Shown here: positions 412-18,353 of the stretch, in pieces
How positions within the stretch are numbered: position 1 is the first letter of the stretch
Layout: every line of letters starts with the position of its first letter
Assembly: GCF_023715605.1 (NCBI RefSeq)
Contig: NZ_JAMBOL010000028.1
Location: 1 to 43,142, forward strand
Length of the DNA stretch: 43,142 nucleotides
DNA from: Halalkalibacter oceani
Lineage (GTDB): Bacteria > Bacillota > Bacilli > Bacillales > Bacillaceae_D
Direction: 5' to 3'
Program-made: the position numbers and the translations under genes
Notes under the pieces: generated by a model
Told to the model about the DNA's origin: nothing
The model's input: only the letters and a program-made list of their open reading frames with translations
Database searches by the model: none

Positions 412-549
412 TCCACAGTAGCTCAGTGACGATGAGAAAGCTTCCTCGAAAAGTTTTCGAGTTGTCTCGACGCAGCTAACGTCGGAGCAAAGCGATCAAG
501 AGGAAGAGACAGGTACCACAAGCGTACGAATGAACAACTTCAATGATAT
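412..549 (+). repeat. tRNA-Asn 5' fragment joined to repeat core (one copy)
   Basis: Bases 412-429 repeat the first 18 nt of tRNA-Asn (acceptor strand to D-loop, ending CTCAGTG). At that point, inside the D-loop, the sequence changes to the repeat core: a palindrome CTCGAAAAGTTTTCGAG, then TTGTCTCGACGCAGC, GGAGCAAAG, and AAGAGGAAGAGACA. A unique tail then leads directly into the intact tRNA-Asn. The same core occurs in the arrays before tRNA-Thr (10415) and tRNA-Lys (11261). TGTCTC and GAGACA can pair. Not a functional tRNA: the anticodon and T arms are missing. Confidence 0.85.
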
Positions 550-624
550 TCCACAGTAGCTCAGTGGTAGAGCAATCGGCTGTTAACCGATCGGTCGTAG
601 GTTCGAGTCCTACCTGTGGAGCCA
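550..624 (+). tRNA. tRNA-Asn (GTT)
   Basis: 75 nt including encoded CCA. Acceptor TCCACAG pairs with CTGTGGA. The anticodon loop CTGTTAA lies between ATCGG and CCGAT, giving anticodon GTT. T arm GTAGG-TTCGAGT-CCTAC. It lies downstream of 5S rRNA and directly after the partial copy of its own 5' end. Confidence 0.97.
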
Positions 625-9034: not shown

Positions 9035-9958
9035 ATGGACTATCAATCATTTGGAAAGAAGTTCGAGGATATTTCAGGCATTACAATTACTCCTTTCAAA
9101 GAAGGGTCGAAAGAAATTGATTGGAACGGTGTAAAAGAAAATGTGAAGTTTTTGATTAACCGGGGAGTTAATGTGCTTGTTCCCTGTGGAAATACGAGTG
9201 AGTTTTATGCGCTGACATTAGAAGAAGTGAAAGAAGAAATCAGATATGTCGTTGAATGTGCCAATAAGCGTGCTACCGTTTTGGCCGGGGTCGGTTATTC
9301 GGTTGCGACGGCGATTGAACTGGGCAACTATGCGAAGGATGTCGGAGCTGATTGCATCATGATTCATATGCCTGTTCACCCTTTTATGACCGATGACGGG
9401 GTGGTGGATTATTTTAAATCGATTATTGAAAATGTCGATTTGCCGGCCGTGATTTATTTTAAAAATCCAGCTATCTCAGATCGGGTGTTGGAGGAACTGT
9501 CCTCACTGGAAAGGTTAGTTGCGGTTAAATACGCGATTAATGATTTGCCGCGCTTTGCTAGAACCGTTCATTCGATCCCCGCCCATCATAACATTACGTG
9601 GGTATGCGGGATCGCAGAAAAGTGGGCGCCATTCTTTTTCCATGCTGGCGCCAGAGGCTTTACATCGGGATTGGTCAATCTTTATCCTGAAAAATCACTC
9701 GAACTGCTTGCCGCATTAAAAAAGAACGATGAAACGAAAGTATGGAGCGTCTGGAATGAAGTACTTCCTTTTGAAAACTTACGGGAAAAATACAACAGCG
9801 GTGTCAATGTAGCGATTGTCAAGGAAGGGATGCGACAAATCGGTTTAAACCCGGGCGTCACGAGAGAACCTGTCAGCCCATTAAGCGCCGAAGACAAAGC
9901 TGCCGTCCGCACCTTGATTCATCAGTGGAACCTTGATATTCCCAAGCAACCACAATAA
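9035..9958 (+). CDS. Dihydrodipicolinate synthase (DapA) family lyase/dehydratase
   Basis: 307 residues with ATGGAGG 8 nt upstream of ATG 9035. TIM-barrel class I (Schiff-base) family: substrate loop CGNTSEFYAL (51-60), conserved Tyr Y141 in VIYFKNP, and Schiff-base lysine K165 in VAVKYAIND. In Bacilli, relatives convert 2-keto-3-deoxy sugar acids (for example 5-dehydro-4-deoxyglucarate dehydratase, KdgD) or act as aldolases. Lysine biosynthesis is unlikely given the catabolic neighbours and the GntR operator upstream. No semialdehyde dehydrogenase is encoded in the window, so the end of the pathway is not visible. Confidence 0.88.
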   Translation: MDYQSFGKKFEDISGITITPFKEGSKEIDWNGVKENVKFLINRGVNVLVPCGNTSEFYALTLEEVKEEIRYVVECANKRATVLAGVGYSVATAIELGNYAKDVGADCIMIHMPVHPFMTDDGVVDYFKSIIENVDLPAVIYFKNPAISDRVLEELSSLERLVAVKYAINDLPRFARTVHSIPAHHNITWVCGIAEKWAPFFFHAGARGFTSGLVNLYPEKSLELLAALKKNDETKVWSVWNEVLPFENLREKYNSGVNVAIVKEGMRQIGLNPGVTREPVSPLSAEDKAAVRTLIHQWNLDIPKQPQ

Positions 9959-9965
9959 ATCGCGA

Positions 9966-10008
9966 TAAAAAGAAGGCTCAATGTTGCTGATTGATGAGCC
10001 TTCTTTTT
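9966..10008 (+). terminator. Rho-independent terminator after DapA-family gene
   Basis: Long perfect stem AAAAAGAAGGCTCA / TGAGCCTTCTTTTT with a short loop. T-rich on both strands, so probably bidirectional. Confidence 0.92.
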
Positions 10009-10157
10009 GCATTAAGAAAGTATAAAAACCTTCGCGTTGATTCGGACAGGCCCCCGGTCCGCGCGTTACACGGATGGCAGAAGCCCCCGTTTTCAGCGAT
10101 TTCGAAACGATTGTAATCGATTTGCATCCCTTTCTAAGAAAAATTATACAAAGGGGG

Positions 10158-10186
10158 TTGTCTTTAAAGTTTATTTTTTATATAAT
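10158..10186 (+). promoter_or_regulatory. Promoter of tRNA operon
   Basis: -35 TTGTCT (10158-10163), 17 nt spacer, consensus -10 TATAAT (10181-10186), about 30 nt before tRNA-Glu. The AT-rich context fits a strong stable-RNA promoter. Confidence 0.85.
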
Positions 10187-10217
10187 ATTTTTTGTCAGTA
10201 AGAAAGAGTTGTATTTT

Positions 10218-10292
10218 GGCCCGTTGGTCAAGTGGTTAAGACACCGCCCTTTCACGGCGGTAACACGGGTTCGAATCCCGTACGGGTCACCA
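10218..10292 (+). tRNA. tRNA-Glu (TTC)
   Basis: 75 nt including encoded CCA. Acceptor GGCCCGT/ACGGGTC; anticodon stem CCGCC/GGCGG with loop CTTTCAC, giving TTC. First gene of the operon. Confidence 0.97.
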
Positions 10293-10298
10293 TTTGCC

Positions 10299-10374
10299 GG
10301 AGGATTAGCTCAGCTGGGAGAGCACCTGCCTTACAAGCAGGGGGTCGGCGGTTCGATCCCGTCATCCTCCACCA
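10299..10374 (+). tRNA. tRNA-Val (TAC)
   Basis: 76 nt including CCA. Acceptor GGAGGAT/ATCCTCC; anticodon stem CCTGC/GCAGG with loop CTTACAA, giving TAC. Confidence 0.97.
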
Positions 10375-10414
10375 GCATACATAGGGATAAAAGCCAACAT
10401 GCTACATATACTAT

Positions 10415-10994
10415 GCCGGTCTAGCTCAATTGGTAGAGACGAGCAAAAGCATCGTCGAATAAACGGCGAGTTGTCTCGACGCAACCCGCATCGGAGCAAA
10501 AGCTGTCAAGAGGAAGAGACACAGTCTCAGCATAAAGTAAGGAACACTGTCTATAACATGCCGGTCTAGCTCAATTGGTAGAGACGAGCAAAAGCATCGT
10601 CGAGTAATCAACGAGTTGTCTCGACGCAGCCCGCATCGGAGCAAAAGCTGTCAAGAGGAAGAGACACAGTCTCAGCATAAAGTAAGGAATACTATCCATA
10701 TTATGCCGGTCTAGCTCAATTGGTAGAGACGAGCAAAAGCATCGTCGAGTAGTCAACGAGTTGTCTCGACGCAGCCTGCATCGAAGCATAATCAGGCAAG
10801 AGGAAGAGACACAGTCTCAGCATAAAGTAAGGAACACTATCCATATTATGCCGGTCTAGCTCAATTGGTAGAGACGAGCAAAAGCATCGTCGAATAAACG
10901 GCGAGTTGTCTCGACGCAGCCCGCATCGGAGCAAAAGCTGTCAAGAGGAAGAGACACAGTCTCAGCATAAAGTAAGGAACACTGTCTATAACAT
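10415..10994 (+). repeat. Tandem array: 4 x 145 bp units of tRNA-Thr 5' fragment plus repeat core
   Basis: Units start at 10415, 10560, 10705 and 10850, exactly 145 bp apart, and the next start (10995) is the intact tRNA-Thr. Each begins with the first 24 nt of tRNA-Thr (to GGTAGAG in the D arm). The core follows: GACGAGC-AAAA-GCATCGTC hairpin, CGAGTTGTCTCGACGCA, GGAGCAAAAGC and AAGAGGAAGAGACA. A tail of about 45 nt leads into the next tRNA start. Units 1 and 4 differ at one position that I can see (CAACCC versus CAGCCC); units 2 and 3 differ more, so block duplication is likely. The fragments lack anticodon and T arms. No protein is encoded. Confidence 0.93.
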
Positions 10995-11067
<73 letters not shown>

Positions 11068-11080
11068 CTTGAATGATTGT

Positions 11081-11165
11081 GGAGGGGTAGCGAAGTGGCT
11101 AAACGCGGCGGACTGTAAATCCGCTCCCTCCGGGTTCGGCGGTTCGAATCCGTCCCCCTCCACCA
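11081..11165 (+). tRNA. tRNA-Tyr (GTA)
   Basis: 85 nt including CCA, with the long variable arm typical of bacterial tRNA-Tyr. Loop ACTGTAAAT gives anticodon GTA. Acceptor GGAGGGG/CCCCTCC. Confidence 0.97.
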
Positions 11166-11171
11166 TTTCGT

Positions 11172-11246
11172 TGGGCTATAGCCAAGCGGTAAGGCAACGG
11201 ACTTTGACTCCGTCATGCGCTGGTTCGAATCCAGCTAGCCCAGCCA
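11172..11246 (+). tRNA. tRNA-Gln (TTG)
   Basis: 75 nt including CCA. Acceptor TGGGCTA/TAGCCCA; loop CTTTGAC between CGGA and TCCG, giving anticodon TTG. Confidence 0.96.
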
Positions 11247-11260
11247 TTTTTTTATAACCA

Positions 11261-11921
11261 AGTAGGTAGCTCAGTGACGAGCGAAAGCATCGTTGAAAAG
11301 ACTTCGAGTTGTTCCGACGCAGCCAGCATCAGAGCATGGCTGGGAAGAGGAAGGAACAGGTGGAGACGGCGGAGCAAAACATCGTCCGGAAGCACCATGA
11401 GAAGCGACATTGGAAAGACATCGGGAGCTATTAGCTCAGTGACGAGCGAAAGCATCGTCGAAAAGACTTCGAGTTGTTCCGACGCAGCCAGCATCAGAGC
11501 ATGGCTGGGAAGAGGAAGGAACAGGTGGAGACAACGGAGCGAAACATCGTCCGGAAGCACCATGAGAAGCGACATTGAAACACACATCGGGAGCCATTAG
11601 CTCAGTGACGAGCGAAAGCATCGTCGAAAAGACTTCGAGTTGTTCCGACGCAGCCGGCATCAGAGCATGGCTGGGAAGAGGAAGGAACAGGTGGAGACGG
11701 CGGAGCAAAACATCGTCCGTAAGCCTCATGAGAAGCGACATTGGAAAGACATCGGGAGCCATTAGCTCAGTGACGAGCGAAAGCATCGTCGAAAAGACTT
11801 CGAGTTGTTCCGACGCAGCCAGCATCAGAGCATAGCTGGGAAGAGGAAGGAACAGGTGGAGACAACGGAGCGAAACATCGTCCGGAAGCACCATGAGAAG
11901 CGTCATTGAAACACACATCGG
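11261..11921 (+). repeat. Tandem array: 4 units (~165 bp) of tRNA-Lys 5' fragment plus repeat core
   Basis: TAGCTCAGTGACGAGCG starts at 11267, 11432, 11598 and 11763; the intact tRNA-Lys repeats the pattern at 11929, so spacing is 165-166 bp. Units 2-4 begin with the tRNA-Lys 5' end (GAGCCATTAGCTCAGT, or GAGCTATT in unit 2); unit 1 is degenerate there. The core has a GACGAGC-GAAA-GCATCGTC hairpin, TTGTTCC...GGAACA pairing and an inner CAGCCA/TGGCTG stem. Units 1 and 3 share one tail and units 2 and 4 another, so the array looks like a duplicated 331 bp dimer. Long open frames on both strands here follow from the repeat and are not genes. Confidence 0.93.
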
Positions 11922-11994
11922 GAGCCATTAGCTCAGTTGGTAGAGCATCTGACTTTTAATCAGAGGGTCGAAGGTTCGAGTCCTTCATGGCTCA
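11922..11994 (+). tRNA. tRNA-Lys (TTT)
   Basis: 73 nt, no encoded CCA. Acceptor GAGCCAT/ATGGCTC; anticodon stem TCTGA/TCAGA, loop CTTTTAA, anticodon TTT. Directly follows the Lys-type repeat array. Confidence 0.97.
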
Positions 11995-12024
11995 TACTTG
12001 TACAAGAGCATCTATTGCAAAAAC

Positions 12025-12097
12025 GGGGCCTTAGCTCAGCTGGGAGAGCGCCTGCCTTGCACGCAGGAGGTCAGCGGTTCGATCCCGCTAGGCTCCA
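12025..12097 (+). tRNA. tRNA-Ala (TGC)
   Basis: 73 nt, no encoded CCA. Acceptor GGGGCCT/AGGCTCC (one G-U); anticodon stem CCTGC/GCAGG, loop CTTGCAC, anticodon TGC. Last gene of the tRNA operon. Confidence 0.97.
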
Positions 12098-12108
12098 TCG
12101 TGAATACT

Positions 12109-12165
12109 AAACACACCTTTAGCGGATTAGGTCTTGGCCTAATGACCGCTGAAGGTGTGTTTTTG
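12109..12165 (+). terminator. Terminator of tRNA operon
   Basis: Long stem AACACACCTT-AGCGG / CCGCT-AAGGTGTGTT with an inner ATTAGG/CCTAAT helix, followed by TTTTTG. Strong and 12 nt after tRNA-Ala. Confidence 0.93.
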
Positions 12166-12415
12166 TCTGCTATATTGATTGCTTTACCGATGATCCCAAT
12201 CTAAATAATGAAGGTAAATGGATTTCCAGTAGATCGTTTACTTTAAGGGAACGGCAAAGCCGGGGAGCCGGGGAGCCGGGTGCTACGCTTTTACGAAGTT
12301 TACCCAACTTTGATGATAACAAGACCCGAAGTACTTATTGTTGGTCGTCTTACCGTGTGTGGTCCACGGTTTTTCTTGTATCTATTTTCGGGGTCTCTAA
12401 AATTGCGCCTGCCGC

Positions 12416-12774: not shown

Positions 12775-12807
12775 TAAGTCAGAACGAATGTGGGTAGGGA
12801 TAGGAAC

Positions 12808-18125: not shown

Positions 18126-18170
18126 GGTTCGTGAGTTAAAAAAAGAGAGGAGGATCGAAGTCGTCATTGT

Positions 18171-18331
18171 AATCAAAGCGCCAGGACTACACACGGACGA
18201 GAACGTGTAGTTGACGAGGAGAGGGTTTATCGAGTATTCGGCGGATGCCCTCCGGCTGTAGCATGACAGCCGCTAAGCTTCTGGAGAAAACAGAGAGGCA
18301 ACTCTCTGCACAAAGCCGGAAGCAGCCATGC
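18171..18331 (+). promoter_or_regulatory. glmS ribozyme-riboswitch
   Basis: Recognised by the conserved core: cleavage site A/GCGCC at 18177/18178, P1-type hairpin ACTACAC/GTGTAGT, TTGACGAGGAG, GGTTTATCGA, TTCGGCGGATGCCC, hairpin CGGCTGT/ACAGCCG and the distal CAGAGAG/CTCTCTG stem enclosed by GCTTCTGG/CCGGAAGC. Binding of glucosamine-6-phosphate triggers self-cleavage and loss of glmS mRNA. It lies 77 nt before the glmS start. Confidence 0.97.
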
Positions 18332-18353
18332 CTTCTAATAAAAAAATAGAGAG

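Follow-up and report, generated by a model that had tools for sequence, protein, structure and literature searches.

A candidate structured noncoding element within duplicated tRNA 5' ends in tRNA operons of Halalkalibacter oceani and its relatives

In tRNA operons of Halalkalibacter oceani and many of its relatives, intact tRNA genes are preceded by units in which a copy of the 5' end of the following tRNA leads into a noncoding element, here called E. On balance, and with modest confidence, we read E as a small structured noncoding element whose copies multiply in tRNA operons without damage to the tRNAs and build up arrays through direct-repeat recombination. The unit would be an inserted noncoding module, E plus a linker, with a copy of the tRNA 5' end in direct repeat on either side, and the tRNA gene would stay intact because its 5' end is duplicated around that module. 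E would spread between the tRNA loci of one genome, and arrays would gain and lose units as the tRNA-derived direct repeats recombine with one another, a process that would keep each fragment identical to its own tRNA.

The window, the whole 43,142-nt stretch of contig NZ_JAMBOL010000028.1 that was analyzed, contains arrays of such units before tRNA-Thr and tRNA-Lys and a single unit before tRNA-Asn (Table 1), showing that the arrays are not specific to Thr. A typical unit consists of the first 12–31 nt of the following tRNA, E (about 80 nt, with ACGAGC at its left end and GRRRCA at its right end, and common to the Thr and Lys arrays) and a linker of about 45 nt. A first-pass annotation of this DNA had described four exact 145-bp units that repeat the 5' end of tRNA-Thr and continue into a core unrelated to tRNA. 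Its periodicity is correct, the unit starts at 10415, 10560, 10705 and 10850 and the tRNA-Thr gene at 10995 being exactly 145 bp apart, and so are its repeated tRNA end, GCCGGTCTAGCTCAATTGGTAGAG (24 nt, identical in the four units and the intact tRNA-Thr), and its non-tRNA core; the units themselves are not identical (129–144 of 145 bases alike between pairs), so that "exact" holds for the spacing only. The same annotation was right about the Thr array and missed the Lys array, the Asn copy and the copies on six other contigs. The Lys array lies after tRNA-Gln and before tRNA-Lys(UUU), with a degenerate tRNA-Lys 5' part in its first unit.

An assembly artefact is an unlikely source of the Thr array, since its units are not identical and the same operon of a close relative (G402) holds two and one units. 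Protein coding by the arrays was rejected, 145 bp being no multiple of three and the Lys spacing alternating between 165 and 166. E would be transcribed together with the tRNAs. The first-pass annotation's further idea, that the truncated tRNA-Thr ends might be decoys for RNase P or tRNA-modifying enzymes or might give rise to small RNAs, is speculative. The promoter annotated at 10158 corresponds to an existing site, the one found by the scan; because shuffled sequences contain 1.7 such sites on average, the scan alone lends no support to a promoter at 10158–10186. On the minus strand of the Thr array, positions 10466–10963 hold seven terminator-like hairpins, compared with 2.4 (sd 1.5) in shuffles of 9950–12300.

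Table 1. Units, copies of E, tRNA genes and a promoter-like site in the window
Feature	Position	Strand	Description
Thr array, four 145-bp units	10415..10994	+	each unit: tRNA-Thr nt 1-24, E (83 bp), linker (38 bp)
E copies of Thr array	10439-10521, 10584-10666, 10729-10811, 10874-10956	+	covariance model R1
Intact tRNA-Thr(UGU)	10995..11068	+	first 24 nt same as in Thr units
Lys array, four units, spacing 165/166	about 11260..11921	+	each unit: tRNA-Lys 5' part (16-17 nt), E, linker
E copies of Lys array	11277-11358, 11442-11523, 11608-11689, 11773-11854	+	covariance model
Intact tRNA-Lys(UUU)	11922..11994	+	
Single Asn unit	412..549	+	tRNA-Asn 5' part 412-428, E 429-511, linker 512-549; after 5S rRNA gene
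Intact tRNA-Asn(GUU)	550..624	+	
Promoter-like hexamers upstream of tRNA operon	10158..10186	+	consensus match only, 10/12

E is predicted to fold, as RNA or as single-stranded DNA, into a structure whose terminal helix has been preserved through compensatory changes. This helix, P2 (TGYYYC/GRRRCA), is 99.2% paired across 61 aligned copies, and double changes at its three varying pairs are found in 27, 16 and 13 of the 61 sequences; P2 thus has the compensatory changes expected of a structured RNA. The search pattern fixed the conserved core and left the three varying pairs free, and the alignment (A1) is a hand-picked set of 61 of 107 non-redundant copies. A helix near the left end of E, P1, is 84.3% paired and shows no double changes in the 61 copies, a third candidate helix pairs in just 53% of cells, and single copies mostly give weak folding z-scores (−0.5 to −3.2). 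The consensus of E contains an imperfect internal repeat of 18 nt (15/18 matching; 0 of 1000 shuffles), a hint that E holds a pair of similar hairpins; in single copies the repeat halves agree at 0.50, compared with 0.48 between different copies. Linkers of many units of the D-loop type (Lys, Ala, Arg-ACG) carry a CGGAGC...CATCGTCCG motif, for example at window positions 11524–11590, which resembles the first hairpin of E.

The relation of E to the downstream tRNA was analyzed in 227 copies, comprising the source genome and the pattern loci among the matches listed (65 species labels) and leaving out L142–L171 (likely duplicates), an L175 copy also contained in L021, and five viral-contig loci. 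Among these listed matches, a same-strand tRNA starts within 150 nt of 143 of the 227 copies and within 800 nt of 53 more, giving 196 with a called same-strand tRNA within 800 nt and 12 anticodons in all; seven copies lie at contig ends, and for 24 no tRNA is called in the 800 nt downstream, one of these rows (L032 at −34) being a contig-start artefact. In 129 of the 143 listed matches with a near tRNA, the left flank fits that tRNA above the best of 20 tRNAs of other isoacceptors; the left-flank match is clear in 123, with none clear in 20. E stands in the sense orientation within the copied tRNA segment, in its D arm or, for Gly, its anticodon loop, directly after AGYN in 166 of 185 copies and after AGAG in 14 of the other 19, among the matches listed. 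Where the segment ends depends on the tRNA type, the usual inner edge being nt 31 for Gly, 14 for initiator Met, 24 for Thr, 17 for Asn, Asp, Ala, Val and Arg-ACG, and 17 or 26 for Lys, with extremes at nt 12 (one Phe copy) and nt 31.

Beyond the right end of E, 73 non-Gly copies resume the tRNA sequence for 3–4 nt (identities of 0.82, 0.79, 0.66 and 0.45, against control values of 0.52, 0.20, 0.17 and 0.26), and Gly copies have mostly one matching base. Since the tRNA sequence resumes there, E is placed inside tRNA-derived sequence, with an intact copy of the tRNA after it. A functional tRNA intron was considered and rejected, none of 165 joined flanks giving a junction-spanning tRNA by ARAGORN after removal of E alone. 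The copies behind the joined-flank and inner-edge analyses include the five viral-contig loci, one of which is also in alignment A1, and 21 of 186 copies with an unclear left end were dropped. In Geobacillus zalihae (L066:4373-4454), E lies within a tRNA-Arg-like gene whose 3' part follows directly, with no intact copy in the locus; the joined sequence, one of the 165, was not called as a tRNA. Among the matches listed, 12 of the 24 copies lacking a tRNA share two other left flanks, CTCCAGCG-like in eight and GCAGGA in four, which look like other dispersed repeats; all 12 belong to Evansella, Alteribacter and Litchfieldia (L031, L041, L060, L073, L082, L084, L109, L115, L116). Transfer RNA is therefore the main, not the sole, host sequence of E.

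In 37 of 46 Gly copies the 31-nt fragment matches its own tRNA at every base, and the tRNA variant of its own species is its best match in 44 of the 46, with ties in two; these counts are conditional on a match, the test having used those 46 of 51 Gly copies with the clear left match that it required. Mean identity among Gly copies is 0.74 in E and 0.35 in the linker (0.225 in shuffled linkers). Within a set of 112 representatives, copies of E that precede different tRNAs in the same genome are more alike than expected (none of 500 permutations gave a value as low), and E carries no tRNA-type signal across genera (98 of 500 permutations), a result on which a tRNA-type-specific guide in E was rejected. 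These patterns fit a history in which E has spread or been homogenized within genomes and the fragment tracks the local tRNA. Coevolution with a host factor could also be the source of the within-genome likeness.

Among the matches listed, 34 of 144 tRNA sites have at least two units, and the 52 tandem spacings measure 84–174 bp. In Parageobacillus thermantarcticus (L039:7137-7578), some tandem copies of E are joined without a tRNA fragment between them, and upstream of the Gly unit of L173 a second linker-like stretch precedes the first tRNA fragment and looks like the remnant of one more unit. The operon of the two arrays was compared in stretches upstream of a sigma-factor-like gene, our reading of the open reading frame at 12790, from 20 relatives, some cut by contig ends. 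Units before Thr and before Lys in this one operon number four and four in the source genome, two and one in G402, one and none in G369, and two and none in G170. The Val–Thr interval is complete in 12 genomes, these four (with four, two, one and two units) and eight that have none; the Gln–Lys interval is complete in 20, with four units in the source genome, one each in G402 and G400, and none in 17.

The layout in G369 is Val-TTAT-half-E-linker-Thr, and seven relatives have 2–6 nt between Val and Thr. With a 4-nt spacer followed by tRNA half, E, linker and Thr, the net insertion in G369 amounts to half, E and linker, which is equivalent to E plus linker put into the tRNA between direct repeats of about 24 nt. 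The clean G369 case is not general, for at other filled sites the first fragment comes after a longer spacer (40 nt in the source genome). The site between the 5S rRNA gene and tRNA-Asn is filled in the source genome and empty in eight relatives. At sprT-like gene loci, E precedes the tRNA-Asn just downstream in five of nine (the source genome, two Geobacillus and two Parageobacillus); some copies thus look old and kept, a hint of function, and these loci count against simple recent mobility.

In its own genome, E has 22 copies on seven contigs (covariance model, E-value ≤0.01), each of which was read to precede a tRNA for Thr, Lys, Asn, Gly-UCC or initiator Met. The first-pass annotation had proposed a search for the core beside tRNA genes of Bacillaceae, and the core was found there. 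E is present in 13 of 13 genomes of the same genus and, in a sample of the order, in 183 of 397 genomes and 82 of 135 genera, leaving 214 genomes with no E (E-value ≤0.01, strict filters). A phylum-wide sample, in which three of 249 genomes, including the source genome, come from the same order, gave E in one, the Halalkalibacter oceani source genome (E-value ≤1e-5). A pattern scan of named genomes retrieved at least 115 stretches, of which 112 are Bacillus-like by name among the matches listed. The remaining listed stretches are two from Verrucomicrobiales, which are coding and were dropped as chance matches, and one from a Bacteroidia MAG (L126), whose right flank is that of an Anoxybacillus copy (L105) over the 14 bases compared. 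With one copy of E as query, there was no match in 50,697 phage records, and three of 72,556 plasmid records matched (two Anoxybacillus, one Geobacillus; 2–4 annotated genes nearby), a number that is not informative.

Rfam scans of the whole window at gathering thresholds, of positions 10100–12200 at an E-value ≤5 and of L130, L052 and L134 at an E-value ≤0.5 gave no match to E; the matches in these scans were tRNA, rRNA and glmS, together with sub-threshold matches over tRNAs. The glmS ribozyme lies at 18166–18333 of the window (136 bits). Bacillaceae-1 is entered as RF01690 in a table of PMC2864571; neither it nor the other Rfam families gave a covariance-model match to E. Among the open-access papers listed by the literature search, no title or abstract opening describes E. 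Having no match to the described families tested, E is filed here as a putative undescribed bacterial noncoding repeat that is a member of no named family.

The first-pass annotation had named E. coli tyrT, the source of rtT RNA, as the best precedent, and the likeness holds as an analogy: tyrT, too, has tandem repeats of 100–200 bp that contain part of a tRNA within a tRNA operon. The tyrT repeats, however, carry the 3' end and occur at one operon, whereas units of E carry the 5' end (nt 1–24 in tRNA-Thr) and a structured core and occur at many tRNAs and in many genera; rtT has its own Rfam model, and the core matches none. REP, MITE and bcr-like repeats resemble E in being short, gene-free, structured, present in many copies and similar within a genome. 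Unlike these, 196 of 227 copies of E among the matches listed lie in sense within 800 nt before a tRNA, most of them within 150 nt and behind its 5' copy. The rrA, rrB and rrF RNAs of E. coli rRNA operons are likewise noncoding RNAs inside a stable-RNA operon (PMC8144298); its title and abstract opening mention no tRNA fragment or tandem array, and the comparison is by description only.

Several other explanations bear on these observations. The most serious, possible though in our judgment unlikely, is that E is a host regulatory or processing RNA, in which the tRNA 5' half and E are transcribed with the operon as a small RNA or protein binder whose dose the arrays would raise. A helix maintained by compensatory change, sense orientation inside tRNA operons, the range over 82 of the 135 genera, the five sprT-like loci with E before tRNA-Asn and within-genome copies as alike as one coevolving partner would make them all speak for such a role, but a host RNA sits poorly with zero to four units before one tRNA of the same operon among relatives, with the 214 genomes that lack E under strict filters (E-value ≤0.01), and with the 24 of 227 listed matches that have no called tRNA within 800 nt downstream, 12 of them behind two other flanks. 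On the favored reading, E would be less a host regulator than a passenger of tRNA operons. Ordinary tandem duplication of a decayed, functionless tRNA region would account for the variable copy number and for linkers that have diverged far (identity 0.35, against 0.225 when shuffled), yet one and the same E with paired changes accompanies tRNAs with 12 different anticodons across 65 species labels among the matches listed. Such a shared element is beyond the reach of independent duplications, which refutes tandem duplication as a full account and leaves it a negligible probability.

Mobility by known enzymes was weighed as well. IS200/IS605 elements insert after a fixed tetranucleotide, without duplication, and E might be a non-autonomous element of such a Y1 transposase or of another single-strand recombinase, inserting after AGYN as a folded single strand. 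Precise insertion in one orientation after a short motif (AGYN in 166 of 185 listed matches), a paired element end and targets in tRNA arms fit this idea, and genomes with E contain Y1_Tnp more often (149 of 183) than genomes that lack E do (122 of 214; odds ratio 3.3, p = 1.7e-7, a statistic that ignores phylogeny). We consider it improbable, since the source genome has 22 copies and no Y1_Tnp at an E-value ≤1e-10, 34 of the 183 E-positive genomes also lack it, and a tRNA 5' end repeated directly on both sides of E and linker does not resemble duplication-free insertion; absent from the source genome at that threshold, a Y1 transposase was rejected as an obligate partner of E. Site-specific integration at tRNA genes, with the 5' segment as an att-like identity block and E plus linker moved in trans by an integrase, would leave what islands and prophages leave: a direct repeat of one tRNA end next to a restored, intact tRNA, and tandem copies. 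Those elements, however, use the 3' end and carry an integrase, whereas the identity block of E units is at the 5' end, its inner edge varies from nt 12 to 31 with the tRNA, and tandem spacings of 84–174 bp among the matches listed are too short to hold an integrase gene. The lack of a phage match to the one copy queried points the same way, and we rate a remnant of integration as slightly less probable still than a Y1-borne element.

E may even be a protein-free mobile RNA that inserts itself into tRNA transcripts behind AGYN, a speculative idea to which we give about as little credence as to Y1 transposition. Fixed in DNA as E, linker and tRNA 5' half, it would be a bacterial analogue of tRNA-headed SINEs. 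Its RNA intermediate would be the repeat unit, whose loss or gain would leave the tRNA sequence as it was. Unit gain and loss without change to the tRNA would explain the sense orientation, the preference for tRNA, the want of a gene and the tolerance of E in essential tRNA operons. The broader reading that we favor, of a proliferating element whose arrays change by recombination, has against it that no movement of E was observed and no enzyme was found; that E moves at all is suggested by the filled and empty orthologous sites.

E is a gene-free element of 80 bases that about half of the order's sampled genomes carry in their tRNA operons, and it stands outside Rfam. It bears on hidden, unannotated RNA in the tRNA operons of Geobacillus, Halalkalibacterium halodurans, Shouchella and their relatives, and could account for partial tRNA copies that annotation may take for pseudogenes. 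E would also offer a direct test of how noncoding sequence enters tRNA genes without breaking them.
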